Shown one piece after another: positions 19,601 through 39,058 of a stretch of DNA of 43,420 nt. The stretch covers positions 1 through 43,420 of the forward strand of contig JACRPI010000032.1 of assembly GCA_016214075.1 (NCBI GenBank), read 5' to 3'. The position numbers and the translations under genes were made by a program. The stretch comes from Candidatus Woesearchaeota archaeon (GTDB taxonomy: Archaea; Nanobdellota; Nanobdellia; Woesearchaeales; DSVV01). The notes under the pieces were generated by a model. That model saw only the letters and a list, made by a program, of their open reading frames with translations, had not been told where the DNA came from and did no database searches. Position 1 is the first letter of the stretch. Every line of letters starts with the position of its first letter.

Positions 19601-19831
19601 CGGATACTGCGCATTGACCTGATCTAGAATTGATTGTTGGATTGATGAACGAATATTTGCTTCTGCTGCATTGTCAATTGATGGAAGGTAAACTGGTTGG
19701 ATTCGAATATGGATGCTTAAGAAAATGGGAATCAGTATCAGGAAGAGAAGATAATTTGCTTTGCACCACGTCCATATGTTTAGCGCAATTTTTCCAAAGT
19801 CAATAGAAATGTCTTCTTTTTCTTCTCCCAC
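16664..19831 (-). CDS. aglB: Dolichyl-phosphooligosaccharide-protein glycosyltransferase (AglB/STT3)
   Basis: The 1,055-residue protein has the hallmarks of the archaeal oligosaccharyltransferase. EIDPWYFYR (catalytic Asp138) is in the first outside loop, SDTDGYN (263-269) is the second acidic motif, and VAEFNP (Glu439) is in the position of the SVSE/TIxE loop. The acceptor-recognition motif appears as WWDFG (694-698) instead of the usual WWDYG. The membrane region has about 13 helices (to about 660) followed by a large outside domain. It transfers glycans from a lipid carrier to Asn in N-x-S/T sequons outside the membrane. An unusually long first loop (about 50-135) is rich in Gln, Asn and Glu. 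The start is a GTG preceded by GGTGG; an ATG four bases upstream is out of frame. Confidence 0.95.
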   Translation of the reverse strand: MGEEKEDISIDFGKIALNIWTWCKANYLLFLILIPIFLSIHIRIQPVYLPSIDNAAEANIRSSIQQSILDQVNAQYPNLPEENKQKLAQEQLDAIYAAGTIDYLGQQIAIEDLVEQNAQQIKAQFQDEYGLTYLGEIDPWYFYRLTENYLEHGYEGDIELNGRYYDTHQMAGTPREVLGGETSKLPHFHVMVEAYLYKIISLFAPNIRLMTVVYFLPVLLAALAVIPAFFMVKKVAGNMGAFVAATIVAVHPAFIGRTIAGFSDTDGYNVLFPLLIMWIFIEALEAQNWKKALGFGALGGMIVGIFSYTWGGWWYIYDFLLGVCFVSLWYVFVKKYIAGKERNQKITWIIGAIILAPLFVLGAAVKTGLETIKKKQFESEEEKLLLALVIFIVCCGLFVTFFSSFKVFVNAVKEPLAFSTIKEVGVIKIWPNVLTTVAEFNPASLSEIIGTVSFGMGILLLLAFLGVGYALFERAIIEKEQEWMLAAGLAWVILLTLLSGKIISPFFFTLLLFAPLFYLIYRKVSFTTIYFVGVSMWYAAIIKWIPQLQDTLFLFFFLVGIPLLIGVIYALLEEQKADMKYAVLLFIWFVGTIYASTQGVRFVMILVPAFAVACGFGVSFVYRIWADVIADLIKLQVKWVKVVLIAGVAILLFLPIGVGYTLGSQQMPLINDGWYNALEKINQEAAPDAIVNSWWDFGHWFKAIADRAVTFDGGSQDTPQAHWIGRALLTDSESEAVGILRMLDCGGNSAYDTIYKKINNSYKTITLTKEIILMTEEDARTALTENGFSEEEASAVLQYTHCTPPEDYFITSQDMVGKSGVWAHFGSWNFERAYIVNVANAYEKEEALTIIENDIGLSVEEAEKLYNEAITSDPNNWITGWPSYVTMPQDCWQENEMLLCGSGVMINFTTGDAGVLTSEGYKHPQKLLYIAPDGSFNTTDFSNQSDVLISSDGRSSYSAAIIPSGASFTGFFMDSQLLESMFTKLFFYKGHNLECFDLFEEQHTVTGETIYVWKVDWSCSSANKVFVQQEIVGSADMPVEIKEVEIAETTEETKA

Positions 19832-19863
19832 TCATCCCACCAAGAGATGTGAGAAAGCTGGGT

Positions 19864-19872
19864 TTTTATAAA
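19864..19872 (-). promoter_or_regulatory. TATA box and ribosome-binding site of aglB
   Basis: Minus-strand TTTATAAAA is centred about 37 bp before the GTG start. A GGTGG motif lies a few bases before the GTG, supporting 19831 as the start. Confidence 0.55.
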
Positions 19873-19979
19873 GGTTGTTGAAAAGAATGCTCCACTACTT
19901 TGCTCCTTTAGATTTTGTTTAGATTCGCCCGATTGCTTTTGAATTTCTGTTCTCATTTTACTTTTTTAAAAAAAAAGAG

Positions 19980-20047
19980 AGCTGAATTGTGTATAAGGAC
20001 TTTACTGAGCGACTACTTATTTTTTTGGTGCGTGTTTATGTGCAGCT
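19980..20047. repeat. Structured element E (68 bp), related to the element at 33656-33720
   Basis: Outer arms AGCTG (19980-19984) and CAGCT (20043-20047) enclose the conserved strings AATTGTGTAT, TAAGG, GCGA and GGTGCGTGT in the same order as in the second copy. An inner stem ATAAG/CTTAT is also possible. It lies in the gap between aglB and the reductase gene; no open frame is apparent. Confidence 0.5.
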
Positions 20048-20065
20048 GTTTATGAAAATACAACA

Positions 20066-21187
20066 TTATAACGCTTTCCACATCTTTTTCATGTGCTTCA
20101 TCCCAAAGAAAATAAATTGCGGATTTTCTCTAACAAGATGAAATATTAATTGTAAAAGGTTATCCCGCGTATACTTTTCCATCACCTCGTTCGCACTGGA
20201 ATTGTTCAGCATTTTGACGAGTTGGTTGTATTCCTCATCTGAAAATTGGTCAAGGAACTTTCGCAGGAAGAGATGGAGCCACAATTTTTCTCTTTTGAGT
20301 TCTTTGTTGAAATCTTTGTTGTTGATGACGCAGTCTGTAAGTATTTTCGCTGCTTCAAGATGTGGAATAATTCCGCCTCCTGTTGTGGATTTTATGATTG
20401 TCGCTGCGTCACCAATAAGATAGATGTTGTTTTTTTGGACATTGATGTTTGGATTGTAACAGGGAATTAATCCTCCTTGTCTGTCCGTAATGTCCAAGTC
20501 TGTGTATCCTAATTTTTCCATCGCATGTTTGAAATAGATGTTTGGTGTTTCTTTTGTCGCAAGACCAATTCTTGCGTGCTGCGTATCTTCTGGGACAACC
20601 CAGAGGAAAAATTCTGGACAGATATTTCCAAGATAGACGTGATAGGTGTTTGGTTCAAAGGTTCCTTTCACTGTTGCCTGGCTCCCATAATACATCGGCG
20701 TTGGATGCCGCTTGAGCATTTCTTCGTTGATGATTTTAGAGACTTTGCTGTTTGGTCCATCCGCGCCGATAAGAATGTCAATTTTAACTTTCTTTTCTGC
20801 TTCTTTATTTTTCACGATGATTTCTTGTGTTTCATCATTGTAACTGATGAACTTTGTTCCTTTTTCTATCGTCGCTCCTGCCACGATCGCTTTCTTCAGA
20901 ATGTAGTTGTCAAACTTATGACGGCAAACGATAATATCATCATTTTTTGTTTCAAACACAGTGCCATCTGGCGCAAACACTTTGACTTTCCGCATCCTGT
21001 TGACTATGTACTCATCGCTGAGTTCCACGTGGTTTTTGAGATCATTGGTGAGAATTCCTGTACACTGAATAGGAAGCCCTGGCTCAAGATGTTCTTCGTA
21101 GATCGTGACGTTGTAGTTCGCTTTTGCAAGAAGATACGCTGTGTAGTTTCCCGCAGGTCCTGCACCAATGATCGCGACTGATTTCAT
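20066..21187 (-). CDS. Geranylgeranyl-reductase-family FAD-dependent oxidoreductase
   Basis: The 373-residue flavoprotein starts with the FAD-binding motif IIGAGPAGNYTAYLL, then has GLPIQCTGIL (residues 37-46), GADGPNS (141-147) and LIGDAATIIKSTTGGGI (257-273). Together these are the layout of the archaeal geranylgeranyl reductase family. Members saturate double bonds of the isoprenoid chains of archaeal membrane lipids or of polyprenyl carriers. Length is slightly below the usual 390-450. The alternative is a related FAD monooxygenase-like enzyme. Near aglB it could also act on the lipid carrier of N-glycosylation, but this is only position-based. A TATA-like box 26 bp upstream fits a leaderless start. 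Confidence 0.85.
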   Translation of the reverse strand: MKSVAIIGAGPAGNYTAYLLAKANYNVTIYEEHLEPGLPIQCTGILTNDLKNHVELSDEYIVNRMRKVKVFAPDGTVFETKNDDIIVCRHKFDNYILKKAIVAGATIEKGTKFISYNDETQEIIVKNKEAEKKVKIDILIGADGPNSKVSKIINEEMLKRHPTPMYYGSQATVKGTFEPNTYHVYLGNICPEFFLWVVPEDTQHARIGLATKETPNIYFKHAMEKLGYTDLDITDRQGGLIPCYNPNINVQKNNIYLIGDAATIIKSTTGGGIIPHLEAAKILTDCVINNKDFNKELKREKLWLHLFLRKFLDQFSDEEYNQLVKMLNNSSANEVMEKYTRDNLLQLIFHLVRENPQFIFFGMKHMKKMWKAL

Positions 21188-21335: not shown

Positions 21336-21346
21336 ATTTATAAATA
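21336..21346 (+). promoter_or_regulatory. TATA box of the first TPR gene
   Basis: ATTTATAAATA is centred 26 bp before the ATG at 21367, fitting a leaderless transcript. Confidence 0.65.
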
Positions 21347-21366
21347 AAGCAGGGGTTCTTTGAGGT

Positions 21367-22707
21367 ATGGCCCAAGCAAGTACTACAGAACAAGACTTTT
21401 TTGGTAATGAACCATCGTTAGATAGTTCTCTCCAAGCTGTTGAAGCAGAAATCGAACCAGAAACCTATTCAGAATTTTATGACTTGGTTACAGAACGATT
21501 ATTTAAAACATCAGCAGAAGAAGGGATTGGATTTCTTGGCAAGTATATTGAACGACGAGGATCTTTTTGGGGTCTTGGAAGTGTAGGAACTTCTCTTAGA
21601 AAACATAGTTACCTCCAAGAAGACATCGCAAAATCACATCCTAATGATCCTGATCGAATAGAAGAAGCACTTGTGCAACTTCGCGATACGAAACGAGAAA
21701 ATGGTCGATTAACGCTTGATGACGTTGTCGCGACAAGTTATCTTCTCACTGATGAATTTGACAGACGCGCGACATTTTTGTTGGCGTATGAACTTGATTA
21801 TCTTGAAGCACGAGAGCTCGGTGTCTCTGTCTCTTCGAAAGGAAAAACCGGGACTACCCAACGAGCTCCGACAAAAACAGAAGGAGAAGCATATGTCGCA
21901 GATATCCTTCAATGGATGGACTACGCAACTTCAAAGAGGATGCCTTTCAGAGAACTCATACGAGGAATCCATTTCTTTCTTATTAACAGTTTAGAACTTT
22001 ATGCGACTGCTGTTCATGATATTAAACAAAAAAATTATACTGTTGCTCAAATAAAACTCACTGGCCTTCGCGCTGCTGCTGACAAAGGACTCGCGAACAT
22101 AGAAGGACCAATTATTTATCAGCTTGCGCAAATTGCACTCAAAACAAAAAATGATGCACTCGCTGAAGAAAGATTGAGAGAATGTGTGATGATGCCTTCA
22201 ACAGCATTTCCCACACAGTTTGGAATACATATTGAAGATGCATATCAGGCACTTTTAGAACTCTACCAAAAAAGAAAAAATATTGATGCTGCACACGAAA
22301 TATTGTCTCATGCAAAACGATACAACGCAGTAACACAAGAACACTATGTCTCTGTTGCACGACTCTGTTATAAGCTATATCGCGGACAGGATGTCATTGC
22401 TCTTATCAATGAAGGCATCAACAGATTTTCGGAACATGACAGATTACGAGCATACAAACAAGATGTAGTTAATGATTGGTTTGAATTAGGTGGTAAAGCA
22501 GAAAAAGATAAAGATTACTCTGATGCTCGCGCATATTACAGACGAATCATTGAATTTGAACCAACACATACGCAAGCGTATTTACGAATTGCACAAACAT
22601 ATGAAGCACAGGGCAGAAAACTTGAAGCACGAATGCATTACCAGAAAACACTCGCCTTAGATAAGAGAGTTACTGAAGCACAACAAGGGCTTAAACGTGT
22701 TCAATAG
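21367..22707 (+). CDS. TPR protein with shared N-terminal helical block (TPR1)
   Basis: The 446-residue, probably cytosolic protein has no signal peptide or membrane helix. Residues about 35-150 form a helical block with the pattern LTLDDVV...DRR...YELDYL that recurs in the next gene and in the 931-residue membrane protein. Several degenerate TPR helices follow (about 200-350). The last 84 residues (363-446) hold a strong TPR module: VVNDWFELG, DYSDARAYYRRIIEFEP, then AYLRIAQTYEAQGRKLEA. That module is repeated at the C-terminus of the next two proteins and, more loosely, inside the GT4 fusion. It likely acts as an adaptor. I do not recognise a named family. Confidence 0.78.
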   Translation: MAQASTTEQDFFGNEPSLDSSLQAVEAEIEPETYSEFYDLVTERLFKTSAEEGIGFLGKYIERRGSFWGLGSVGTSLRKHSYLQEDIAKSHPNDPDRIEEALVQLRDTKRENGRLTLDDVVATSYLLTDEFDRRATFLLAYELDYLEARELGVSVSSKGKTGTTQRAPTKTEGEAYVADILQWMDYATSKRMPFRELIRGIHFFLINSLELYATAVHDIKQKNYTVAQIKLTGLRAAADKGLANIEGPIIYQLAQIALKTKNDALAEERLRECVMMPSTAFPTQFGIHIEDAYQALLELYQKRKNIDAAHEILSHAKRYNAVTQEHYVSVARLCYKLYRGQDVIALINEGINRFSEHDRLRAYKQDVVNDWFELGGKAEKDKDYSDARAYYRRIIEFEPTHTQAYLRIAQTYEAQGRKLEARMHYQKTLALDKRVTEAQQGLKRVQ

Positions 22708-22797
22708 AAAAAACATCAACATTCTTTTATGGATCTATTTCTTAACCTAATCGACCATCACAACTTAATCTTCAAGTCGTAAAGCATACCGCATAAT

Positions 22798-22807
22798 CTT
22801 TATAAAA
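22798..22807 (+). promoter_or_regulatory. TATA box of the second TPR gene
   Basis: CTTTATAAAA is centred 26 bp before the ATG at 22829. Confidence 0.65.
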
Positions 22808-22828
22808 CGATTCTCGTTTCTCTCTTTC

Positions 22829-24736
22829 ATGATGGAACATTCTTCTGGTGGGGCTCCGTATGATCTTCTTCTCCAAACACTGTCTCGGCGTTTGCTAAAA
22901 CCCACTATTTCCCAAAAAGAGGGACTTGACGCACTTGCCTCTTACATTACGGGCACAGGATGGATAACTGAAAAACCTCTCTGGGCAACACTCCTCTACT
23001 GGCGGACAAGACAAGAAGAACGCTCTGCTCTGAACAGTTGTCTTGAAGAATTGTATTCCAAAAAACGAGAACTGAAGAATGACTCTCTTTCTCTTGACGC
23101 AGTTGTTGCTGTCGCGTACACCCAAACAAACGAGGTTGATCGACAAGCGCTGCTCGTTCTTGGTCATGAATTTGGTTTTTATACAATCACAAAAGAATCT
23201 AACTCTGCATATTTCGTTGATGATGATTCCAAGCAAAGTATTGTTGCTCTTGTAACAAATTTGGAAGCCGCAAAGAAGGGAGGAATTACAACGGACGCAG
23301 TCATGGCTTATCTTCTTCCTCAACGCACTGTTTCCAACGCCAGAGAAGAAACTTTGGATATTGGAGATACGTGCGGATATGACTCTGATATTACTGGAAC
23401 TTTTGAATTTGATGATGATCAAGAATTGGATAATTTCGCTACAGAAGAGCTTGACCCCTTAAGCCCAACTGTTCTTATTCCTCTTTATACGATGGGAATT
23501 ACTGCTGTCCTTGCAAACGATCGTGAAACAATTACCCAAATAGGAAAAAATAATATGATCCAACTTCGAGACGCACAATATAAAAAACACATCGCTTGCG
23601 CACTTCGCGCAGCGTACAGTTTCCAGAATAATGTTATTCCACAAGCAATACGATATTATGAAGAAAGCATTGCTTTAACGCCAGAACCGGAAACACACGA
23701 ACCCCTTTACGCAGCCTCAATTACGGCACTTTCTGGATTATATTGTCGCTCTGTTGCATACACTGAAAGATTTGCAACGCTTTACCCGCTCGCGAAGGCA
23801 GTGGCGATCCCACTTGATGAACAGACTATTTGTGAGAAAGTTAGACATTTCGCGGAGATGACAACGAAGGCGTATAGTACACAAAAAAGCGACACTTCTC
23901 TTCGTCAATTAGACAAACTACTTCCTCTTACTGAACTTCCTTCTGTCTTTGAAATAGTAACCACGGCATATACTTCAATGATGCGCCATGCGCTTGATGA
24001 CAAAAATATTGATCACGCAAGACATTGTCATGACAAAATAGCAGCACTTTCCCAAAAAGTTCCTTTTGAAGACGAACTAAGAGACGGTATTGAAGAAAAA
24101 GTTCTTGATGCCATTGTTTTATTTTATGAATTTGCAGCATTACAATATGACGTAGGAGCTGTTGAAGAAGCGGCAAAAGCACTTGACAACTGTGAACGTG
24201 TTTTAAAGACTGGTGGCGCTGGCGCTCTTCACTTACTCACTGCAAAAATTCGACTTGCTGAAGGAAACAACGATGCTGCACTCGCATCTTTAGAAGCAGC
24301 TGTTGCTTCTGATTTTAGTGATCCACGATACAAAGTAACAAAAGAAGAAGTATATGTACTTCTTGCACGACAGTATTACTTAAGAAAGAACTACAATAAA
24401 CTAAGAGATTTATTTGAAGACGGTTTTGAAAAACTTCCTTCACATCAGAATTTAATAGAATATAAACTAGATGTTGTTAATGATTGGTTTGAATTGGGAC
24501 ATAAAGCAGAAAGAAATAAGGATTATTCTGACGCACGCATGTATTATCGACGAATCATTGAATTTGAACCAATTAATGCAAGAGCCCACTTACGAATTGC
24601 CTTAACTTATGAAACACAAGGACGTAAAATAGATGCACAAACATACTACCAAAGGACACTCGTTCTGGAGGCTCAATCTTTGGAAGCGCAACAGGGGCTT
24701 CTTCGATCGATAAAGGAAGTTATTACTCCACAGTGA
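22829..24736 (+). CDS. TPR protein, paralogue of the preceding gene (TPR2)
   Basis: The 635-residue protein repeats the layout of TPR1. The N-terminal helical block ends LSLDAVV...DRQ...HEFGFY (residues 87-118), with the same 27-residue spacing as in TPR1. An acidic linker follows (about 165-200, rich in Asp/Glu), then a middle region of degenerate TPR-like helices, and finally the C-terminal module (545-635) with VVNDWFELG and DYSDARMYYRRIIEFEP. The two C-terminal modules differ at few positions, so the genes are duplicates that have diverged in the middle. It is probably cytosolic and a scaffold. Its TATA box and ATG fit a leaderless mRNA. Confidence 0.78.
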   Translation: MMEHSSGGAPYDLLLQTLSRRLLKPTISQKEGLDALASYITGTGWITEKPLWATLLYWRTRQEERSALNSCLEELYSKKRELKNDSLSLDAVVAVAYTQTNEVDRQALLVLGHEFGFYTITKESNSAYFVDDDSKQSIVALVTNLEAAKKGGITTDAVMAYLLPQRTVSNAREETLDIGDTCGYDSDITGTFEFDDDQELDNFATEELDPLSPTVLIPLYTMGITAVLANDRETITQIGKNNMIQLRDAQYKKHIACALRAAYSFQNNVIPQAIRYYEESIALTPEPETHEPLYAASITALSGLYCRSVAYTERFATLYPLAKAVAIPLDEQTICEKVRHFAEMTTKAYSTQKSDTSLRQLDKLLPLTELPSVFEIVTTAYTSMMRHALDDKNIDHARHCHDKIAALSQKVPFEDELRDGIEEKVLDAIVLFYEFAALQYDVGAVEEAAKALDNCERVLKTGGAGALHLLTAKIRLAEGNNDAALASLEAAVASDFSDPRYKVTKEEVYVLLARQYYLRKNYNKLRDLFEDGFEKLPSHQNLIEYKLDVVNDWFELGHKAERNKDYSDARMYYRRIIEFEPINARAHLRIALTYETQGRKIDAQTYYQRTLVLEAQSLEAQQGLLRSIKEVITPQ

Positions 24737-24761
24737 ATACAAATAGAAACTTTTATAAATA
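24733..24761 (+). promoter_or_regulatory. Promoter of the PP2C gene, near-identical to the PKD-gene promoter
   Basis: These 29 bases, ending in TTTATAAATA, match 33741-33769 at 27 positions. The match covers the upstream GTGAATACA and ATAGAAAC strings as well as the TATA box. The block overlaps the stop codon of the preceding gene. The TATA centre is 26 bp before the ATG at 24782. Confidence 0.65.
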
Positions 24762-24781
24762 AGCTCCTTTTTTACCCCAAT

Positions 24782-26623
24782 ATGGATAGCTATGCAACAC
24801 AATATTTCAAAAGAACGCAAGATGGTTTTGACAGTTCTGAAAATGATGCATACTCCCTTTTTCTAACAGAAGATATGATGCTTTCTGTTGCTGGCTTTTC
24901 TTACCTTGGAAGAAGAAGACCACTTAATGAAGATAATTATATCCTTCAAGATGGAACTCTGGTTGTTGCGGATGGCGCTGGGGGTCACAATTCCGGAGAA
25001 ATCGCAAGCCATCTTGTCTGCGATGTTTTTGAGCGAGAGAACGATCCTACTTCTGTGCCAATACAACATAAAGAATTAAGCGACACTATTCGCGAGGCAC
25101 ATACTTATGTAATTAAAGAGGCTGCAAAAAGACCGAAAGAGTTAGGAAAAGAAAGAGAAGGAGAAATGTGTTCTACTGTTGCTGCTCTTCGCTTTCTAGG
25201 GAATAAAGTTTCTCGCGCGTACGTCGGTGATTCTCGCATTTATCGCTTACGAAATAACAGATTAAAACAACTGAGCGAAGATGACAGTGTTGCTTGGGAA
25301 AGATATCGAAAAGGAGAAATTACAAGAGAGAATGTTCGAACAGATAAAAATAGACATTTTATTACTTCTGCAATTGGATTTAGTGACAGTTCTCTTTCTC
25401 ATCTTCACGATTCTTCAGATGATGTCCAGCTTGGAGATGTTTATCTTCTTTGCACAGACGGTCTTTGGGATGAACTTCCTGATCGGGAAATTGGACGACT
25501 CATAAAACAAGGATACGTTGACCACCCTGATGATGATCTTACTGTCGCAAAAATGCTTGTTACTGCTGCAAACAGCGCAGGGGGGCGAGATAATATTACC
25601 GCTGTTCTTGCACGAGCGAAAGGAATTCCTATTGAAATTCTTGTTGAACGAGGCATTGGAGCAATAGAAGAAGACGATACAACTCTTCTTTTGGATCTCT
25701 TTAGCAAGCATAGAGACAGATTGCTCTCTGCACATGGAAGCAAAGCTCGCTATGTTCTTGCAGAATATACACAAAGAACCGGACTTTCGCTTACTGCACG
25801 AGATTTTTATTTAGAAGCAATCGAACAAGCATCTCCTCAAGAACGCAAAGAATCTTATTTTAAAAAAACAGTTGATACACTCCTTTGGCTTTATTCTTCT
25901 CTTTATATTCAGGAAACTGGTGCATCAAATGGAAGAGAACAAATATTCTTCAGAAAAGTTCTGGAACTTCGAGGAAAGGCAGAAGGGTATAAGGAACGAA
26001 TTGATGCAACACTTTGCGAACGTGTTGAGCAATTTGGTGATTTTGAAAATATTACAGAACTTGACAATCTGCGCCTAGGCTCTATAGATGCTCACGTTCC
26101 TGCTCTTCGAGAAAGTATTGCTCATGGTTATCTACAAATTGCTGAGAAAGCACTCGCTAGAAAAGACTATGCTAATGCACAAATGTTACTTGAAAAAATG
26201 CACCTGGTTAATACTGAAACTCCTTTTATGCAAACAGTTACTAAAAGACAGGGAACTGCTTACGTTGGTCTTGCGAGAGTTTACTATGTAACACGCCAAT
26301 TTGAAGCACTTCATACATTGTTTAGCGACGAGCATAAAGAAGTACAAGAGCTCATGAGTTATAAGAAGGATGTTATAAACGATTGGTATGAACTTGGTCG
26401 CAAAGCAGAGAGGGAAGGAGATTACTCTGATGCACGTGCCTATTATAGAAGAATTATCGACTTTGAGCCATCACATGTTAGAGCACACTTTCATATTGGG
26501 ACTGCATACGAAGCACAGTTACGACATGACCAAGCAAAAACTGCTTACAAAAGAACTCTTACATTAGCACCAACTTTTACTGAAGCACGAGAAGGATTAA
26601 CAAGAGTTAAAACGAGGAACTGA
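24782..26623 (+). CDS. PP2C-family Ser/Thr protein phosphatase with C-terminal TPR module
   Basis: Residues about 33-280 are a PP2C/Stp1-type phosphatase. Metal-binding acids are present in RRRPLNEDN (Asp51), VADGAGGH (Asp64), LLCTDGLWDEL (Asp226) and GGRDNITAV (Asp270), with YVGDSRIYRL in between. So the enzyme looks complete and Mn/Mg-dependent. A middle helical region (about 300-525) leads to a TPR module (527-613; DYSDARAYYRRIIDFEP) shared with the two preceding proteins. PP2C enzymes are uncommon in archaea. It probably removes phosphate from Ser/Thr of partners bound through the TPR tail. The next gene starts 5 bp later, so the two are co-transcribed. Confidence 0.88.
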   Translation: MDSYATQYFKRTQDGFDSSENDAYSLFLTEDMMLSVAGFSYLGRRRPLNEDNYILQDGTLVVADGAGGHNSGEIASHLVCDVFERENDPTSVPIQHKELSDTIREAHTYVIKEAAKRPKELGKEREGEMCSTVAALRFLGNKVSRAYVGDSRIYRLRNNRLKQLSEDDSVAWERYRKGEITRENVRTDKNRHFITSAIGFSDSSLSHLHDSSDDVQLGDVYLLCTDGLWDELPDREIGRLIKQGYVDHPDDDLTVAKMLVTAANSAGGRDNITAVLARAKGIPIEILVERGIGAIEEDDTTLLLDLFSKHRDRLLSAHGSKARYVLAEYTQRTGLSLTARDFYLEAIEQASPQERKESYFKKTVDTLLWLYSSLYIQETGASNGREQIFFRKVLELRGKAEGYKERIDATLCERVEQFGDFENITELDNLRLGSIDAHVPALRESIAHGYLQIAEKALARKDYANAQMLLEKMHLVNTETPFMQTVTKRQGTAYVGLARVYYVTRQFEALHTLFSDEHKEVQELMSYKKDVINDWYELGRKAEREGDYSDARAYYRRIIDFEPSHVRAHFHIGTAYEAQLRHDQAKTAYKRTLTLAPTFTEAREGLTRVKTRN

Positions 26624-26628
26624 ATAAA

Positions 26629-29301
26629 ATGACCCCAATTGATGCAGTAACCGAAGTTTCTCGTGATCTTTTCCCCAACAGACGAGTTCTTTTAATCGCT
26701 CATGAGTTTGAAACAGGAGGAGGCATTGCAACATATGTTCGTCATACAAAAAAAGCTCTTCGAAGTTTAGACCTTATGGTGGATGTACTTGTTAGAGCAC
26801 ATGGCTCATCATCTGAAGCAAGCTTATTTACTGATGATGTTGCTACAAGCGTTGACATTAATAATCTTCCGCAGCTATTAAAAAGACGTCCTTATGATCT
26901 TATTCATTTTAACAGTATTTCTACAACAACTATGTATGGTTTTCCACTTCGTGGTCTTGGTATTTTGAACACGCCACTTGTTTATACGGCTCACTCTAGC
27001 ATCCAACAAGAGATGGATCGCTTAGGAGTAGGTGGTGCTGAATATCAACGAGCACTTGAAGCACAACACCAATTACTTGATATTGCTGATAGAATTATTG
27101 TGCCGAGTACAGCTTTGGGGGGCGCACTTGGAGGACAGAGTAAAATACGAGTTGTTCCTAATCCTGTTGCTCTCCCTACTTTTGAGGCAAAAAATGTTGA
27201 CGCTATTGCCAATTGGATTCGAAAACATTATGCTCCTAATGATGAAGACCTCCTTATTTATTCAGGTAGGCTTGGACAAGAGAAAGGAGTAACAACTCTT
27301 GCTGCAGCATATAATCATCTTAAGCGACAGAGGACAAATTTGAGGTTGTTATATGTCGGTGCAGGACCTGCAACTCCTACTGTGTACCAAATTCTTGGAG
27401 CAGACTGTGATGGCTTTATTAAAGATGGCTCTGGAAGAAAATATCCGCCAGTTACTGGTTGGCGACAAGGAGAAGAGCTCTTTGCATATTATGCTGCTGC
27501 AGATGCTATTATAATCCCAAGCAAACTTGAATCGTTTGGGCTCAGTGCTGCTGAGGCACTTCTTATGAAAAAGCCTTTGATTGTTAGTGACATTGATGGC
27601 CCACATGAATATTTTGTAGAACCTGGTTTTGCTTATGGAATCTCGAATCCTAATGATGTGAGCGCAATTATCCAAGCAACTAACCGCTGTCTTGCTGAGA
27701 AAGGAACTTCCTCTCAACGTGCTATGATTGATCGTGCTGTTGCGCACCTTACTTCTGAACTCAATTTAGGAAGTTTCGGGAAGAGAGTACTTCGAACATA
27801 TGCGGAGTCTATAGGAAACACCACTCGAAGAAGACATTATTATCATGCTGCTGCTGCATATCACCAACGAAGACTTGAAGAGTTGCTCACCGAAGAGCCC
27901 GATAATGGAGCTATCGCTTATGCACTTGCAGAGATGTATGCCTCTCATGGAGAGACCTCGTCTGCTCAACAGTTATTAGAACGAGCAATGACCTGTACAT
28001 TTACCGCTTCATATGGTGTGGAAAAACAACAAGCATATGTTGCACTTGCTGCACTTTATTATAAAAAAAGAGAGTATCATTTACTTCCCCCTCTTTTCAA
28101 AGAAGGCTCTGTACTCCTTGAACATGATAAAGTAGATGCGTATAAGAAAGCAGTCGTTGATGATTGGTATGAATTTGGAATCAAAGCACGAGAAGCAAGA
28201 GACTTAGTTCTTTCACAATATTACTTTAATCTAATCTTGGAAACTGACCCTAACCATGGAAATGCGCATCACCGCATTGCGCAAACAATCAAAGAGCTGG
28301 GTGGAGAAGACGCACGCATGCGTGAACACTACGACTATGCTCTTGCACTTCGTGCAGAAATGTTTCCAGAAGAATTTATGACTGGCTTTGCATCTGAAGC
28401 AACAAGAGGTAGCAGCACCAGAACATATCATAATGAAATTACCTTATATCGATTTAACAGACCGAGAATTATCTACGCAACTCCTAAAGAAAGAAGAGCA
28501 CTCTCTGGCTTTGTTGTTAAAAAAGTAATGGAAGAAGGAGACTTACGAACAATAACCCTCCAACGCGCAAAAACTGAATTTTCTACTCTTGAACTACTAG
28601 CAACAAGTCCGCAGTTTCAAGACCACTATAGAGTACCGCTTCCCCTCGCTTATGATCCTACTTCTGGTATCATTGTTATGGAACTTGTTCAAGGAAGAAG
28701 TGTCCCTTCTATTGTTGCACAAAACCCCACAAAATTTGTTGAGTACATGGAAAGAATTGCATCTTTTGCAGCTGAATTACATGAAATAAGAATACATGAC
28801 CGAGCAGATGCTCCTTTAACAACAAATGTTCAATATAGTTTATATCTAAACATGATTAGAGAAGATAATACTAAATCGGCTGACCCCGCATATAGAAGGA
28901 TTAAAGAATATCTTGAGTGTGGAGCGTCTGTACCAACTGGAAGAACACAACGTTTTATCCATGGTGACCAGAGCATTGCTGTTTTTTATGATACTGGGGC
29001 AGAACTTTACTGTATTGATTTTAACAACGCTGATTCTGGTTTGCCAAGTCAAGATGCAGCACTGCTTATTTCAAATGCATACACACATATGGCTGATGTT
29101 GTTCCCTTACCTCTCTTTAGGAATGGAGTAGAGCACTTCTTAGAACTGTATACCAAAAAAATGGGCTCTGATGAAAAAGCTGCTTTTTCACGTCAGCTCC
29201 CATTTTTCCTTGCAGGCGCGGAATACTCAAAAGTAAGCGACCTCGGCCTTGGTCGTGTAGATTATAATATTCGAGAAATTTATGGCATCACTTTAAAGTA
29301 G
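26629..29301 (+). CDS. GT4 glycosyltransferase - TPR - kinase-like (APH-type) fusion
   Basis: The 890-residue protein has three parts. Residues 18-390 are a GT-B glycosyltransferase of family 4, with GGGIATYV at the start, YSGRLGQEKG (211-220) and the E-x7-E motif ESFGLSAAE (301-309). Residues about 405-580 are TPR-like; WYEFGIKA and LILETDP correspond to the module of the three upstream genes. Residues about 600-890 resemble an aminoglycoside-phosphotransferase/choline-kinase-type fold: VVKKV (Lys631/632), VMELVQG hinge, FIHGDQSIAV (776-785) and CIDFNN (795-800). The catalytic-loop Asn of HGDxxxxN is Val, so kinase activity is doubtful. It probably glycosylates a protein or lipid under control of the phosphatase next door. 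Confidence 0.8.
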   Translation: MTPIDAVTEVSRDLFPNRRVLLIAHEFETGGGIATYVRHTKKALRSLDLMVDVLVRAHGSSSEASLFTDDVATSVDINNLPQLLKRRPYDLIHFNSISTTTMYGFPLRGLGILNTPLVYTAHSSIQQEMDRLGVGGAEYQRALEAQHQLLDIADRIIVPSTALGGALGGQSKIRVVPNPVALPTFEAKNVDAIANWIRKHYAPNDEDLLIYSGRLGQEKGVTTLAAAYNHLKRQRTNLRLLYVGAGPATPTVYQILGADCDGFIKDGSGRKYPPVTGWRQGEELFAYYAAADAIIIPSKLESFGLSAAEALLMKKPLIVSDIDGPHEYFVEPGFAYGISNPNDVSAIIQATNRCLAEKGTSSQRAMIDRAVAHLTSELNLGSFGKRVLRTYAESIGNTTRRRHYYHAAAAYHQRRLEELLTEEPDNGAIAYALAEMYASHGETSSAQQLLERAMTCTFTASYGVEKQQAYVALAALYYKKREYHLLPPLFKEGSVLLEHDKVDAYKKAVVDDWYEFGIKAREARDLVLSQYYFNLILETDPNHGNAHHRIAQTIKELGGEDARMREHYDYALALRAEMFPEEFMTGFASEATRGSSTRTYHNEITLYRFNRPRIIYATPKERRALSGFVVKKVMEEGDLRTITLQRAKTEFSTLELLATSPQFQDHYRVPLPLAYDPTSGIIVMELVQGRSVPSIVAQNPTKFVEYMERIASFAAELHEIRIHDRADAPLTTNVQYSLYLNMIREDNTKSADPAYRRIKEYLECGASVPTGRTQRFIHGDQSIAVFYDTGAELYCIDFNNADSGLPSQDAALLISNAYTHMADVVPLPLFRNGVEHFLELYTKKMGSDEKAAFSRQLPFFLAGAEYSKVSDLGLGRVDYNIREIYGITLK

Positions 29302-29310
29302 TGATTTGAC

Positions 29311-29326
29311 CGAAACATTTAAATAT
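29311..29326 (+). promoter_or_regulatory. Strong BRE/TATA promoter of the 931-residue protein gene
   Basis: CGAAACATTTAAATAT is identical to 37257-37272, before the S-layer-like gene. It predicts a leader of about 45-50 nt; AGGTGA (29381-29386) is the ribosome-binding site before the ATG at 29394. Confidence 0.65.
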
Positions 29327-29393
29327 AACTTAGTTTTCACTACCAAGTAATTACAAGAATAAAAGTTATAGTAACAACTAAGGTGAACAAAAC

Positions 29394-32189
29394 ATGGCAT
29401 TTACACGAGCAGGAAACCGAGAAGCATTTTTAGAAAAATCTGGATCTATAGATGTTGAAGGATTACAACGTGCAATTGAAACTGGTGACCTTCTTCGACG
29501 CTATGATTTAGACACTGCTCAGAACATAACACGATATCACAGACAGACTCCCTCACTCGTCGGCGGCGCAAGTGTAGCACCAAATACTGCTGCAGATCCT
29601 ACCTTGGATCATCTTGCTGTAACTCCCTTTGATCCTGCAACAGCAACATCACCTGGTTATAACCTCGGGGCAATGATTGCACAATACCTCCCACTGAGAG
29701 ATTGCTTTTATCATCGTGATAAACAACGAGAAGTTGCAAAAGGACTTGATGATTTATACAAAGAATTACAGCGCGTGCAAAATGAAGTTGTTGCACCGCA
29801 CCCTACCAATCCAGGACTCCTTGTCACAACAAAACGAAAATTGACCGCAGCTGAAGCTGGGAAAATTATAGGTCAGCGACGCTATCATGTTTCCCGAGGA
29901 ACACTCGAGCAACTTTCTATTGAGTTAGGATATGTTGGTGAAGTAGATATTCAAACACCAGTCCCTACACCTTATGGTTATACAGCACCTGCTGCCCCAG
30001 CAACACCTGGAGCACCTACATACAGAACACCAACACCTGATGATGTCCGTGCAGCATATCAGCAGCCATTAAGCTGGAAACGCCCACAAACTTATTTACA
30101 AAGAATCCCTGAAGGAGTTCTTGCAGTTATTCGAGATGGTGCACTTGTCACAGGCGCAATTGCTGGTTCAGGACTCGCACTTGGTGCAGTTGGCGCATAT
30201 GCCGCAGCAAAAGGCGGACAAATAGCAGCAGGGCTTATAGGTTCAGGAATTTCTCATGTTGCACGACGTAGCGCATCTGACTATATTACATCGGAAGACG
30301 GTCTTCAAAATTTTGCACAGATGACCGGAAAACTCAGTGGTCTCGCAGCATACAGCGCAACAGCTTCCTTAGCAACTGCAACACTCGCAGTAGGATGGGT
30401 TACAGGAACATTAGCAGGAAGTGCAATTACCCGTTATATTGCAAACAGAAAAAGACAAAATGCTCGCGATAAACAGCGACAACTTGAAGATGTTCTGCAA
30501 ACTGGCGGCATAGACCCTACTTTAGCAACACAAATTCAGAATGATATTCGTTCTGCTGAGAAGTATGAAGCAGCTTCTGCAACGTTTGATATTGCATCGC
30601 TCCTTGGAGTAGTAGGAGGTGTTTTATCCAATGGTGTAGGTATGGTTTCATCAACAAATGATACTGAAGCACCATCCATCGACAAAATAGAATATTCCAC
30701 AAAAACTGATCTCTGCAAAGGAGACAAAGTAGAATTCAGTTTCACAGCAGCGGACAATAAAGATGTTGAAAAAGTTGTCGCTGAATTATACACTGCTGGC
30801 GACGCGCAAGACGCATTACAAGCAAAACTTTTAGGAGTTCCAAGTTCTGTTACAGCATTACAAGATGCAACTGTCCATCAAGATGGAATTACTGATATTA
30901 ATGTTTTCGGAAAAGATGTTGTTGAAGGAAATGGATCATTCACTATTAATGACTCTGGAGACTACAAAGTTTTATTGACCGCAACTGACGCAGCTGGAAA
31001 CAGCACCTCACAGCTTGTTGAACACACCTACACCATAGGAAATTGTGAAAGCACAGTTGATCCTGACGAGCCCCCTGTTTGTCCTGTTGATCCTGATGAA
31101 CCAAAAACACCAAGCGAACTCGAAGACTGTGTTAAAGAACGCTTCAGCTATGGTAAAAATATCAGCAAAGGCGTTGAACTCCGCGAAGTCTATGACTATC
31201 ACACCACACCTTTGAAACCTGAAGCAGGACACGAACAAGGATTAACTCTTGATCATTGGAAAGGCGGAAGCGTTTCATTGAATGGTGTGTATGATGAACA
31301 TACACCATGCGATTTCAACGTCGACAACACTGTTGTCATGCTTGAACATTACACTGACGCAAAAGCACTCGATTATCGAGTCCTTGTTGATGTTGACGCA
31401 TCTGGCCACTTCGAAATTCCAAAAGAATTCGCAGCATACAACGGTGATGACATCCAAGTCACTTGGGCAGAAGTAACCCACTGCGAAGATGGCAAACTTG
31501 GTCTTGAAGACTTAGCAAGCTATACGCACGGAAACCATGTTGTTATTCCAAAAGAAGCAGTGTTTGAAGGATCTGTTCCAACACACGTCGCACCACATTA
31601 TGTTGATTGCGATGGATCAGCTGATGCAACACCTGCACCAAAACATACTGACGTTCCAAAAGACGATTGCGGACCATGCAAAACAGCATGCGACAAGGAA
31701 TATTATTTACCTGTCGGCGTTGTAGATACAAAAGCAGGCCCATGCCCTGACGGCGCACCTGTTATGACAAGCAGTGGATTTGTTCCAGCAGGAACACTTG
31801 ATACAGTCGTCAATACATTTGGTTATATGCCAAGCGATGTTTCAGGAACACCTGTAGACGCAGTTCCTGGAAGTGTTGACGCAACACTCAATCCATTTGG
31901 ATACACTCCTGACGCAGCAGCGCCTCTTAGCGCTCCAGGAGGAACACTTGACGCAACACCAAATCCTTTTGACGGCGTTGCTCCAGCAGTGCCTGCACCA
32001 ACAGGAGCTCCTAGCGGAACACTCAGTGATCCAGTAGATCCATTTGATGTTGACGCAGGATCTGCTCCAGCAGATCCATTAGTGTACAATCTTGGTCATT
32101 ATTACCAAGAAACATATTACATCGATGACGAAGTACTTCGCGCATTCGAGAGACAACAACAAGCAGCATTAGAATTACGACTAGTATAG
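29394..32189 (+). CDS. Multi-pass membrane protein with probable extracellular Ig-like domain and proline-rich repeats
   Basis: The 931-residue protein has no classical signal peptide. Residues 98-182 are a helical block whose LTAAEAG...ELGY pattern keeps the 27-residue spacing of TPR1 and TPR2 and looks like a helix-turn-helix. A Pro-rich linker follows (185-230). Then come Gly/Ala-rich hydrophobic stretches (about 240-290, 312-350, 395-420), probably membrane helices. An Ig/cadherin-like domain (425-555; EFSFTAADNKDVEKV and VLLTATDAAGN) and a Cys-rich part follow. Near the C-terminus about four copies of a G-T/S-L/V-D-x-x-x-N-P-F-x-Y-x-P repeat occur (about 800-900). I do not recognise the family. 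It probably links a cytosolic face to the cell surface. Confidence 0.7.
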   Translation: MAFTRAGNREAFLEKSGSIDVEGLQRAIETGDLLRRYDLDTAQNITRYHRQTPSLVGGASVAPNTAADPTLDHLAVTPFDPATATSPGYNLGAMIAQYLPLRDCFYHRDKQREVAKGLDDLYKELQRVQNEVVAPHPTNPGLLVTTKRKLTAAEAGKIIGQRRYHVSRGTLEQLSIELGYVGEVDIQTPVPTPYGYTAPAAPATPGAPTYRTPTPDDVRAAYQQPLSWKRPQTYLQRIPEGVLAVIRDGALVTGAIAGSGLALGAVGAYAAAKGGQIAAGLIGSGISHVARRSASDYITSEDGLQNFAQMTGKLSGLAAYSATASLATATLAVGWVTGTLAGSAITRYIANRKRQNARDKQRQLEDVLQTGGIDPTLATQIQNDIRSAEKYEAASATFDIASLLGVVGGVLSNGVGMVSSTNDTEAPSIDKIEYSTKTDLCKGDKVEFSFTAADNKDVEKVVAELYTAGDAQDALQAKLLGVPSSVTALQDATVHQDGITDINVFGKDVVEGNGSFTINDSGDYKVLLTATDAAGNSTSQLVEHTYTIGNCESTVDPDEPPVCPVDPDEPKTPSELEDCVKERFSYGKNISKGVELREVYDYHTTPLKPEAGHEQGLTLDHWKGGSVSLNGVYDEHTPCDFNVDNTVVMLEHYTDAKALDYRVLVDVDASGHFEIPKEFAAYNGDDIQVTWAEVTHCEDGKLGLEDLASYTHGNHVVIPKEAVFEGSVPTHVAPHYVDCDGSADATPAPKHTDVPKDDCGPCKTACDKEYYLPVGVVDTKAGPCPDGAPVMTSSGFVPAGTLDTVVNTFGYMPSDVSGTPVDAVPGSVDATLNPFGYTPDAAAPLSAPGGTLDATPNPFDGVAPAVPAPTGAPSGTLSDPVDPFDVDAGSAPADPLVYNLGHYYQETYYIDDEVLRAFERQQQAALELRLV

Positions 32190-32203
32190 TGAGGTAAACA
32201 ACA

Positions 32204-33586
32204 ATGACATACAAAGCAACAACATATACGGTAGCAGCACTTGCAACAGCGATTGGATCATATTCTCCAACTGCAGATGCAACAACAGCACGAAAAGAAC
32301 GACCAATGGCTTATGAATTCCCAGGAGCACCTGCTGGACTTGAAAAAATCACTGTTTCTGCTGGCGTTAATTTAATTCCAAATCAGACAGATGGTTCAGT
32401 TGTTGTTCGTGTTGGCAGTGATGAACTTCCTCACCGAGCAGATGTCAGCGTTAAAAGCGTCGCGACAGGAAAAGAATTACCTGTTTGCGGCTATACAGTA
32501 CAGTACGTTGTTTCACCAGCGACTGAAGCAAGTCAAATGGATCCACGCGATGATCTTATGATTAAACAATATAGAGCAGCATTCCAAAAACCAAAACCAT
32601 TGAATGGCGTTGAAATTGATTATAGAATGGAAGAAAAAGATTTTGACCTTCTTGCAAGTCTTCCTGGCGATGGAAAATATATTCTTTACACACGAGGAAC
32701 AGTCAGTGTTCCAGTCGCTGGCACAGATTGTACACAAACATTGAAGATCCCAGGATTTTCCGAAGGACCATCTTATGATGTCTTCACTGTTGTTGGCACA
32801 AAAGGAACGCCATTTGTTTATCCTTCAGCAGAAATTGAAGCATGGACAAACAGCGATCTTGAATTTACTGAAGGAGGCATGTTTCATCCAAAATGGAAAC
32901 AAACACATGTAGTTAAAGGAATCATACAATATGAAGCAGGCAAACATGTCGGCGCAGATTTTGCAGTTCTTGGAACTGATGGCTTTGGAACAAACAAGAA
33001 AGATGATCCTTGCGCACCACGAGATCCATGCGCTCCAACAGATCCTTGCACAACAAACTGTAAACCAGTTCTTTACGAAGAACTCTTTATTGTTGGCGCA
33101 AACACTGTTCAGGAAGGAAGACGAACTATTGTTGTTCCTGACGAAACAAGCATGAACAGAGTGAAGATCCAACCCGGACAACATCTTGTTGCACGCTATG
33201 ACGCGGAGAATTATAACATTAGAACACATGAAGTGGATGCAGTAACAACAAGACGAACTGACGGAACTATTGCACTTGCTGAACGAAACATTGATGGAAT
33301 CATTGTTCCTGCTCACGGCATGGTTTTCGGCATTGAGCGTGTGCTCTACGGTATGTACGCTGTTGACAGAGATCATGATGGCGTTATCAGCCCTGGCGAA
33401 CAAGAATGCAGACCTATTGCAAAAGACGTTACCGTTGTTGAATTTGTTCCACGCGGTTATGAAGCAGAAGCATTCCTTGCAGGTCTTGGTCTTGGATTGA
33501 TTGGGGGATATTTAATTCCAAACCCAACACCAGTTCTTGAAGCAGGAGAAGTTGGCTTTGGCGCTGCAGGAGCACTTGTACACTAA
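32204..33586 (+). CDS. Surface protein with EF-hand-type calcium loop and C-terminal membrane anchor
   Basis: The 460-residue protein follows the preceding gene after 14 bp with its own GAGGT ribosome-binding site, so the two are co-transcribed. The N-terminus is weakly hydrophobic (about 7-25) and could be a signal. The body is mostly beta-type, with a DPCAPRDPCAPTDPC repeat (268-282) rich in Cys. Residues 388-399, DRDHDGVISPGE, are a complete EF-hand calcium-binding loop (dockerin-like). A Gly-rich hydrophobic stretch near 424-439 (AFLAGLGLGLIGGYLIP) may anchor it. Function unknown; calcium binding is a firm prediction from the loop. Confidence 0.7.
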   Translation: MTYKATTYTVAALATAIGSYSPTADATTARKERPMAYEFPGAPAGLEKITVSAGVNLIPNQTDGSVVVRVGSDELPHRADVSVKSVATGKELPVCGYTVQYVVSPATEASQMDPRDDLMIKQYRAAFQKPKPLNGVEIDYRMEEKDFDLLASLPGDGKYILYTRGTVSVPVAGTDCTQTLKIPGFSEGPSYDVFTVVGTKGTPFVYPSAEIEAWTNSDLEFTEGGMFHPKWKQTHVVKGIIQYEAGKHVGADFAVLGTDGFGTNKKDDPCAPRDPCAPTDPCTTNCKPVLYEELFIVGANTVQEGRRTIVVPDETSMNRVKIQPGQHLVARYDAENYNIRTHEVDAVTTRRTDGTIALAERNIDGIIVPAHGMVFGIERVLYGMYAVDRDHDGVISPGEQECRPIAKDVTVVEFVPRGYEAEAFLAGLGLGLIGGYLIPNPTPVLEAGEVGFGAAGALVH

Positions 33587-33899: not shown

Positions 33900-36800
33900 A
33901 TGTATAAAAAACTAACAGCATATCTCGCATTATTTTTAATTTGTATGACTTCTGTTTTTGCAGCAAATACAGTCACTCTTCATTACTATGATGAAGATGG
34001 CGATGCCGTCAATAATGTTGAAGTTTCTGTTTATGAATGTGATAACAGCTCTTGCAGTTCCCTTGATGGTAGCAGAGTAGATTATGATGACACAGGTTCT
34101 ACAAACGACGCGGTATTAAGCATTCCAGGTGTTAGTTCCACAACATGGTTTGTCGCATACGCATTCGCAGAAGAAAGTGACAGTTATTTACCGAATTATC
34201 AAACATTTTATCTTACAGGCAATGGCGCAACTGGCGAAACAGACGTGACGCTTGAAAAAAAAGATACTTGCCGATCCACAATCCAATCATTCAGCGTGAC
34301 GAACAGCGCAGCGCCTAACGAACCAATTTATGTTGACGTTGAAGCTGCTCTTGAAGCAGACACGTACAGCGCATTCCAATATTCAGACTCAGGCATTTAC
34401 GCATACGGCGATGGCACATCTACTTACGGTGACTGGTTTAAAGCAGAAACACTTGTAAGTTTATCTATTGTGAAACAAGTTACTATCGGTGCTGGCGCAT
34501 TTGAAAGCACTATCAGTATTCCTGTTTACTCTGACACAGAAACATTGAACATCCAAGCTGAAGACAGCGAAAATGTTCAGTTTAGTTATACACCTACTTC
34601 AGAAGGAACATACGTTGCAACTGTCAGTACTTATGTGACAGACGCACAATGCGCAAGCGCTGAAGAACAATCCAGCGCAGAACAATTTGAAATTGTTTCT
34701 GAAGAGGATACCGAATACTGTTACACATTAATTGACAATCTTGCTATCCAAGAAATTGAAGATGGAACTGTTACTGAACTCCAAACAGGAGTAGAATATA
34801 CAGTTACTTTTGACAAATTATCCAACAGCGTTGATAGTGATGGAGATCTTGACGCGCGTGACACAGCACTTGACGTGACGGTGTACGATGAAGATGGCGA
34901 TCTTGATTACTCTTTCAGCGATGTTGATGGAAACAGCGATACAGACTATGATGACTATTCATTCTCCTGGACACCAATCAGTGGCGGAGATAATACTATT
35001 GTTGTGTACGGTATCGCAGACAACTGCGAATACAGCACAAACCTTGATGAAACAGAAACATTGACTATTTATGTTGCTGGCGACGATGTGGACACCACAT
35101 ATCCACCAGTCGCAGACGCTGGAGGTTCATTCTTCGGTATGTACTGGAGTTTAGATTATGATGTTACTTTTGACGGCAGCGGCAGCTACGACACAAACCC
35201 AGACGGTTCAGGATCTATCGTGAGCTACGAATGGGACTTTGGTGACGGAAGCACGGGCACTGGCGTGAGCCCAACACACACGTATAGCGCGAATGGCTTT
35301 TACACCGCAACACTTGTTGTTACAGATAATGACGGATTAACTGACGACGATACAGCATCAGTTCGAATTTGGGTTATTGATTTCCCAGAAATTCCAGACC
35401 CTGATTTTGATCCTAGCGTAACCTGCGGCGGACCATACAGCGCAACACTTGGCGACAGTATTACTTTTGATGGGTATGGCTTTGACCTTGATGGCGGACC
35501 TATAGTGTACTTATGGGACTTTGGAGACGGAAGCACTTCTGTTGAAGAAGATCCAACATACACCTACAGCGCAGAAGGAGTCTATCCAGTTACTCTTACT
35601 GTTTTCGATGATGAAGGCAACAGCGCAGTCTGTACAACCACTGCAACAATTACAGCAGTGACTGTGAACAGCGCGCCTACAGTAGATTGTAGTGTTTTAG
35701 AAACCGCAGGAACTGTTGATGAAATATTAACACTCGATGTTGACGCGACAGACAGCGACGGAACCATTGCTCAATACGATTGGGACTTTGGAGACGGAAG
35801 CACTGACAGCACAACAACTGATAGTACACAGAAAGCATACAGCGCAGCAGGAACATACACGATTAGTGTTACAGTGACTGACGATGCTGGCGCAACCGCA
35901 AGTTGTAGCCAAGACATTGACATCACAGAAGATACAACAACGACAAACATTGCACCTACTGTTGACTGTAGTTTATTCCCTACAACTGGAACTGTTGACG
36001 AAGTCGTGACATTCCAAGCAGTCGCAACAGACAGCGATGGAACCATTGCTCAATATGATTGGGACTTTGGAGACGGAAGCACTGACAGTACTACAACAGA
36101 GAGTACCACATATACATACACAAGTGCAGATACATACCCAGTGACTGTTCTCGTAACAGACAATGCTGGCGACACTGCACAATGTACTCAAGATATTATT
36201 ATTAGCGAAGCAGCAGAACCTGCTGTGATGACTGTAGAAATTGTCGCAGACCCGACAAGCGGCATCGCGCCACTTCCAGTCAGCTTTAGCGCAATAATCA
36301 CAAACGGAGTTCCTCCATTTGTGAGCTACGCTTGGGACTTTGGAGACGGAAGCACATCCACTGACACCGCTCCCGTGTACACGTACACTGCTGACGGCGT
36401 TTATACAGTAACACTTATTGTTACAGACATTACAGGAGCGACAGCAACAGACACAGAAGTGATCACTGTTGAAGCAGATCTTCCCGCAATCGCGGTCGCG
36501 AGCGCAACTCCGACAAGTGGAGAACCAACTCTTTGGGTACGATTCTCCTCTGCAGGAAGCTCAGGCAATGAACCATTATCTTATTACTGGTCATTCAGCG
36601 ACGGTGGAAGCTCCACATCCGCAAATCCAGCACGCTATTATAATAGCGAAGGAACATTCACCGCGACATTGACTGTCACTGACGCAGATGGCGACACTGA
36701 CAGCGACACTGTCACCATTACTGTCGGCGATGAACTTGAAAACATCGCAAACAGACATTATTATGTTGACGGTATCGCAATGAGCAATGACGGCAGAGTT

Positions 36801-37067: not shown

Positions 37068-37069
37068 AT

Positions 37070-37207
37070 ATGCATGACAAACTGTCACTGCATAGACTAT
37101 CAACAAGTATCACCAAAGACAATAACTGTTTGAACAAAATAAAATTGTCTTTGGTGGAATAGTCAACGACATTCGTTTTTTTTTCAATTGCATCATGTCG
37201 TTGACTA
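37070..37207 (+). terminator. Three strong stem-loops after the PKD gene (probable 3'UTR/terminator)
   Basis: HP1 is 37070-37093 (ATGCATGACA with TGTCA-C-TGCAT). HP2 is CACCAAAGACAAT/ATTGTCTTTGGTG (37111-37123/37144-37156, perfect). HP3 is TAGTCAACGACAT/ATGTCGTTGACTA (37160-37172/37195-37207, perfect) with nine T in its loop. ATAGTC at 37159-37164 can pair with GACTAT either at 37095-37100 or at 37203-37208, so alternative folds exist. All lie upstream of the next promoter, so they belong to the end of the PKD transcript. Confidence 0.6.
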
Positions 37208-37243
37208 TACTTTACAATAGTGAAGGAAAGTAACCACTGTAGT

Positions 37244-37278
37244 GTACTCATATCAACGAAACATTTAAATATGAGTAC
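37244..37278 (+). promoter_or_regulatory. Promoter of the S-layer-like gene inside a 10-bp inverted repeat
   Basis: CGAAACATTTAAATAT (37257-37272) is the BRE/TATA element. GTACTCATAT (37244-37253) and ATATGAGTAC (37269-37278) form a perfect inverted repeat that straddles it, which could be an operator. The predicted leader is about 60 nt. Confidence 0.6.
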
Positions 37279-37354
37279 TGAATACATAGGCTAAAAGAGT
37301 GGTTTGTAACTCTATACACTCACAAAAAAATAGAGGAAATTGGGGGTAACAAAA

Positions 37355-38662: not shown

Positions 38663-38679
38663 GTACGTGTAGCTTTTCC

Positions 38680-38770: not shown

Positions 38771-38816
38771 CAATGAGATACACATTCTCCTTGGTATTCT
38801 CTTTTTAAAAAATAAC

Positions 38817-38836: not shown

Positions 38837-38880
38837 TCCCCCTGACATTTTCTGCTTTTGCTGGTGCGTGTTTGAAGTTA

Positions 38881-39009: not shown

Positions 39010-39058
39010 ATACCAATGTTCAATCCAAAAACGTTTTCTCTCTCGCTATTTTCGTAGC

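Follow-up and report, generated by a model that had tools for sequence, protein, structure and literature searches.

Genes A to D of a Woesearchaeota genome form a gene set that is genuine, specific, and out of the ordinary; it comprises four genes, not six, is known from one genome, and has a putative function. The reading we favor, tentatively and as possible rather than probable, is that A to D constitute a separate cytosolic four-gene module, located at an insertion hotspot between the STT3 and GGR genes and a surface block, that acts as a TPR-scaffolded, PP2C-controlled glycosyltransferase. This reading draws on the specificity of a TPR tail common to all four proteins, intact PP2C and GT4 motifs, the intact locus of relatives without A to D, the hotspot itself, and a split between promoter types, as well as on the glycosylation surroundings, analogues in G091 and G379, and kinases encoded elsewhere in the genome. 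Counted against it are a GT4-conflict score, which fits a defense role, the absence of the metal-binding Asn from the APH-like domain of D, and the absence of a Hanks kinase gene from the module.

The locus and its genes

The window, that is, the whole stretch of DNA analyzed, comprises 43,420 nt of contig JACRPI010000032.1 (assembly GCA_016214075.1), and all coordinates refer to the forward strand. The source genome is 1.62 Mb in size and 98% complete. The initial annotation had read six co-directional genes as one system, and the ORF listing does contain six co-directional, tightly packed ORFs (A to F) at 21367-33586, exactly where it had placed them. These genes and their flanks are as follows.

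16664..21187, - strand: STT3/AglB-type oligosaccharyltransferase and geranylgeranyl reductase (GGR), the conserved left flank
21367..22707, + strand: A, 446-aa cytosolic adaptor with a helical N-domain in common with B and a C-terminal TPR solenoid (ORF call, Pfam TPR)
22829..24736, + strand: B, 635-aa TPR adaptor, paralogue of A (ORF call, Pfam)
24782..26623, + strand: C, 613-aa PP2C phosphatase with a C-terminal TPR tail (ORF call, Pfam, motifs)
26629..29301, + strand: D, 890 aa, in the order GT4, TPR tail, APH-like kinase domain (ORF call, Pfam)
29394..32189, + strand: E, 931-aa membrane protein, placed in the surface block and not with A to D
32204..33586, + strand: F, 460 aa, probably secreted, with one EF-hand-like loop, placed in the surface block
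33900..42457, + strand: family-conserved surface block of a PKD protein, a CARDB-like TM protein at 37340-38662 (o37340), and a VWA TM protein at 39122-42457 (o39122)

STT3 was assigned from its sequence and neighbors and is one of the glycan genes around A to D, together with GT2, DUF2304, PMT_2, and DegT. No hydrophobic segment exceeds the threshold in A, C, or D, and B has a single marginal stretch (residues 211-229) that appears at the looser threshold only. The GC3 of A to F is 0.23-0.27. This is lower than in the flanks, ranks within the bottom 5-18% of the genes sampled, and resembles that of kinase clusters located elsewhere in this genome, on other contigs; genome-wide statistics here refer to a sample of stretches of the genome (177 kb for the promoter word). 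We do not take the low GC3 to prove recent transfer because the genes that relatives carry at this site often have a low GC3 as well, and since this holds for their membrane and secreted pairs, the site itself may determine GC3. A viral origin was also rejected, as C, D, and E have no relatives among IMG/VR contigs. A near-identical repeat occurs at window positions 1-250 and at the left end of contig C28; it probably represents an insertion element at which the assembly broke. Joining C28 to the right end of the window was rejected because the ends do not overlap.

A specific TPR tail on A to D

Both proteins proposed as scaffolds, A and B, are indeed TPR proteins by Pfam, and the catalytic proteins do carry the scaffolds' own TPR module, as had been claimed. 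This tail of ~130 residues is C-terminal in A, B, and C and lies mid-protein in D, with pairwise identities of 30-52% over 118-133 residues and a fixed core, DVVNDWFELGxKAE..DYSDARxYYRRIIEFEP. The four copies are located as follows.

22309..22704, + strand: shared TPR tail, A copy (225 bits)
24317..24709, + strand: shared TPR tail, B copy (226 bits)
26225..26611, + strand: shared TPR tail, C copy (212 bits)
27997..28362, + strand: shared TPR tail, D copy (185 bits)

In a comparison of 784 ORFs, the members' tail domains score 178-222 bits and any foreign TPR domain at most 20 bits. The similarity within A to D is thus far above that of generic TPR, and unrelated TPR proteins do not match the tails equally well. 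A model of the four tails matches only A to D in 288 genomes of the order (E <= 1e-9), and two tail-derived patterns returned no confirmed relatives from 84,980 species, each represented by one genome. DNA identity between the copies is 48-64%, so they are old. A and B additionally have an N-domain in common (32% identity, E 4e-7), which is absent from 280 other genomes searched. AlphaFold2 predicts the C-terminal third of A as a confident TPR solenoid (pLDDT mostly 85-95, ~residues 300-440) and its N-terminal half at low confidence. Because the tail on A to D is specific and non-generic, we can fairly infer that it may serve as their common docking module.

The glycosyltransferase and the phosphatase

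The catalytic domains of D and C lie at the following positions.

26683..27804, + strand: GT4 domain of D, about residues 19-392, with E-x7-E at residue 301
28444..29232, + strand: APH-like domain of D, residues 606-868, with HGD at 778, IDF at 796, and no Asn after HGD
24881..25609, + strand: PP2C catalytic domain of C, residues 34-276, the alignment range to solved PP2Cs

D had been described as a GT4 glycosyltransferase fused to a kinase-like domain, and both the GT4 assignment and the fusion stand. It matches Glycos_transf_1 and Glyco_transf_4 with up to 67 bits (Pfam), has both Rossmann halves and an intact E-x7-E (ESFGLSAAE), and has solved relatives in 6kih and 3c48. D departs from the GT4 family in its fusion to the TPR tail and the APH-like domain, and sampling 371 genomes of the phylum turned up no matching fusion. 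The kinase-like part is better described as the small-molecule APH type than as a typical protein kinase, scoring 32.0 bits against Pfam APH (cut-off 23.2). It retains K, HGD, and DF, but the metal-binding Asn downstream of HGD is replaced in both D and its L121 homologue, leaving its activity uncertain; a two-sequence profile of this domain matched no solved structure. The homologue belongs to G126 (L121), from the same order, where GT4 and APH are adjacent separate genes and resemble an unfused version of D's two ends. Its APH-like protein is 23-25% identical to residues 606-868 of D (E 4e-15) and likewise has no Asn after (H)GD. In contrast to D, the G126 pair has no TPR tail, and no PP2C was recognized on its 8.7-kb contig.

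C is a complete PP2C, as proposed, with 36.7 bits against Pfam PP2C_2 (cut-off 24) and the full set of acidic metal-binding motifs of the PPM family (NED, DGAGG, GDSR, CTDG, and GRDN). Its nearest solved natural relatives are bacterial and cyanobacterial PP2Cs (E 2.5e-25 for 5iti), and it has all metal motifs of the Stp1/PppA-type catalytic domain (PDB 2j82, 5iti, and 6jkv). However, C scores 158.9 bits against the Stp1/IreP equivalog NF033484 (NCBIfam), below the cut-off of 230, carries a further ~330 residues with the private TPR tail at their end, and has no adjacent kinase gene. A to F contain no Pkinase match (Pfam), and a Hanks kinase next to a PP2C is thus not seen there. Elsewhere in the genome there are six protein-kinase matches, four of them over the cut-off; they lie only on contigs C25, C27, and C28, outside the window. 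The initial annotation considered PP2C rare in archaea. Published counts are low (PMC4524716), and within this order PP2C is sparse rather than exceptional, being present in 29 of 288 genomes; this genome has three PP2C genes (C and two more), with other PP2C/kinase clusters on C28 and C27. The open-access papers searched yielded nothing on Woesearchaeota with PP2C, Ser/Thr phosphatase, or TPR, and no paper describing such a gene set, consistent with the claim that it is undescribed.

A different cluster recurs in the order and combines a malate/lactate dehydrogenase (MDH/LDH)-like protein, a PP2C, and a Ser/Thr kinase, often with a TrmB-type regulator, sometimes with an AAA ATPase, and with a series of proteins starting with the same short motif. 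It is found at L004:98-10597 (this genome's C28), L090, L091, L092, L095, L096, L099, L102, and L106, and we found no published description of it. The MDH/LDH-like protein matches solved MDH/LDH with a profile E of 1.5e-13. Runs of 3-7 neighboring proteins with a common short N-terminal motif lie beside PP2C and kinase at L102:11106-17394, L095:3-6981, and L106:11732-14282; the motif, exemplified by DDSVRxRIDxLL and IExDLexkvrxlm, looks like a docking tag. At window positions 42663-43322, a regulator-like gene shows weak similarity (21-26%) to the TrmB-type regulators that accompany the MDH-PP2C-kinase clusters in relatives. PP2C domains also lie within giant open frames of 6282 residues (G003:C25, L087) and 6471 residues (G014:C14, L089).

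The locus in relatives

Four genomes of the same family have the locus intact (G004, G007, G008, and G010), with STT3 and GGR pointing away and then E', F', and PKD in the opposite direction, and A to D are absent from all four. The CARDB-like and VWA genes come next wherever the contig continues, and G003 has the same order from E' on, its contig stopping before GGR. E' is usually a soluble part plus one TM segment, and F' usually has a signal-like start. Both diverge fast, with only partial matches across genera and none to E or F of the window. By eye, the F' proteins at L044:5816-7000, L046:7635-9458, and L051:15296-17086 look like beta-barrels, which is odd for archaea.

The space between GGR and E' is occupied in two relatives by what appear by eye to be a PIN-type toxin gene and its partner (L044:3447-4237) and a nucleotidyltransferase and HEPN-like pair (L046:3908-4875). 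Toxin-antitoxin-type genes at this site in two relatives suggest an insertion hotspot. Both same-genus assemblies break at the locus, within GGR on one side and within o37340 or o39122 on the other, so the lack of A to D there says little, and the genes may be genus-wide. The A to D set was found in none of the other searched genomes and is known from one; the expected conservation of gene order in relatives thus fails as far as the assemblies allow, and a joint function has no support from this quarter.

E is a membrane protein, as annotated, with a soluble N terminus and hydrophobic segments within residues 250-418. Its proposed Ig-like region is weak, residues 422-540 matching DUF4625 at 24.6 bits, below the cut-off of 27. 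F, annotated as an EF-hand surface protein, does have one EF-hand-like loop (DRDHDGVISPGE at residue 388); its start is only weakly signal-peptide-like, and its structure prediction carries no confidence (pLDDT 31). Like A to D, neither has relatives in 29 other genomes. The idea that the N terminus of E is a copy of the A/B N-domain, raised by an equal-spacing match seen by eye, was rejected as not significant (BLAST E 1.9, hhalign 0.1%, score reached by 138-158 of 500 shuffles). N-glycosylation sequons are not significantly enriched in E (6 versus 3.6 expected) or F (1 versus 1.3). Elsewhere in the window, the PKD protein (33900-37067) has 1 sequon versus 7.7 expected (P about 0.002), and positions 4501-6579 have 12 versus 6.5.

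Two promoter types

The promoter-like elements of A to F are the following.

21337..21366, + strand: TTTATAAA, a TATA box at -30 of A, which is predicted to be leaderless
22799..22828, + strand: TTTATAAA, a TATA box at -30 of B, which is predicted to be leaderless
24752..24781, + strand: TTTATAAA, a TATA box at -30 of C, which is predicted to be leaderless
29312..29393, + strand: promoter-like GAAACATTTAAATAT and a leader with Shine-Dalgarno-like AAGGTG, ahead of E

A TATA box exactly 30 bases ahead of the ATG is the layout of leaderless archaeal genes. D begins 5 bases past C and has no TATA box of its own. With a separate promoter-like box ahead of each of A, B, and C, these genes need not be co-expressed, which counts against the module reading. 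The E-type promoter also occurs at 33754 (PKD) and 37258 (o37340), and in the 177 kb of this genome that were sampled, only E, PKD, and o37340 are preceded by a GAAACATTTA that runs into a TATA box and is followed by a leader. In relatives, a TATA-like box lies about 75-130 nt upstream of E', a layout similar to that of E. Position matches E and F to the variable surface pair of the family, and promoter type does so for E as well. Given the locus order in relatives and the promoter split, E and F most likely belong to the surface block, with A to D as a separate insertion.

Parallels in distant relatives

Looser analogues of A to D exist in two distant relatives. G091 (L104) encodes a 906-aa PP2C and a coiled-coil neighbor with a common C-terminal repeat module (36%, E 1e-12), along with a VWA-like protein (by eye, no Pfam match), a GT2-TPR protein, and a GT4-TPR protein. 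G379 (L120) encodes GT4-TPR and GT4-TPR-GT2 proteins and four TPR-type proteins with a common tail. What likens both loci to A to D is a TPR-fused GT4 beside neighbors with a shared tail, plus a PP2C in L104; they differ in their tail sequences and GT2 domains, and the A to D tail itself is absent. Of 359 genomes, 2 encode GT4-TPR proteins of this kind. A degenerate PP2C suspected by eye in L119/L120 was rejected after profile comparison (2%).

Proposed mechanism and alternatives

Docking, phospho-control, and the glycan target of A to D are the parts of the favored reading that we infer. The shared tail would be the docking part that puts the phosphatase and the glycosyltransferase on one adaptor complex, the tails binding a common partner or each other. 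Hanks-type kinases encoded on contigs C25, C27, and C28 would set the phosphates, and the PP2C would remove them, acting on a complex member or on the GT4 and so switching or re-targeting the glycosyltransferase. D would extend a cell-surface glycan, either lipid-linked or on a protein, by a sugar, and the product would feed the surface glycans made next door by the GT2, DUF2304, PMT_2, DegT, and STT3 genes.

The main rival, though an unlikely one, is that A to D are a defense or conflict module inserted in the hotspot, with the GT4 as effector and the PP2C and TPR proteins as its switch. It ranks as such because the site is a hotspot, with toxin-antitoxin-type genes in two relatives, and because GT4 domains have been described as effectors of conflict systems (PMC8195603), in which sets of PP2C, kinase, and VWA genes also occur (PMC7159879). 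These systems have the GT4 and PP2C domain types in common with A to D, D passes the cut-off of the GT4-conflict family PF20706 (29.6 bits versus 26), and the PP2C of C matches the PADLOC candidate PDC-M21C (E 6.8e-13). However, general GT4 models fit D far better (50-67 bits; 67 versus 30 at best), the PDC-M21C match covers the PP2C domain only and may reflect no more than the fold, and the surroundings are glycan genes. A to D also differ from the described systems (PMC8195603 and PMC7159879) in having no STAND NTPase, Hanks kinase, or cytosolic VWA protein, and A to F contain no STAND NTPase, nuclease, effector-associated partner, or other recognized effector in Pfam, NCBIfam, or PADLOC. 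The presence of other PP2C/kinase clusters on C28 and C27 and of promoters unlike those of the surface block would suit a general signaling module of phosphatase and adaptors, unrelated to the surface and placed here by chance; we regard this as improbable, since D is a glycosyltransferase beside STT3, GGR, and several glycan genes.

The original proposal, that A to F are one phospho-regulated surface-assembly operon whose TPR tails gather the enzymes that would build E and F or glycosylate them, now seems decidedly unlikely. All six genes are co-directional and tightly packed, share a low GC3, and have no relatives in the 29 other genomes, and the specific tail does unite A to D. E and F probably lie outside the unit, however, because an E/F-type pair occurs without A to D in four relatives, low GC3 is frequent in such pairs, the promoter types differ, and no sequence link connects A/B with E. 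Neither a common promoter nor a conserved order supports a single operon: separate promoter-like boxes are present, and the order is absent at the intact locus in the four relatives. That A to F occur in no other genome and have a GC3 below the flanks could also reflect an assembly chimera or contaminant DNA, which is very improbable given one continuous contig whose flanks on both sides share synteny with the family, the presence of archaeal TATA boxes at -30, and a GC3 similar to that of kinase clusters on other contigs of the genome.

Returning to the four-gene module, a more general and more doubtful extension is that the private TPR tail acts as an address tag, bringing phosphatase, glycosyltransferase, and adaptors into one complex for phosphatase-controlled surface glycosylation, a principle that would recur with unrelated tails in L104 and L120. 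To our knowledge, Ser/Thr phospho-control in DPANN archaea has been little described. If the tail is a docking tag, A to D would allow phosphatase-regulated glycosylation to be put directly to the test in an archaeon whose genome is very small, and partner proteins could be found by sequence alone.
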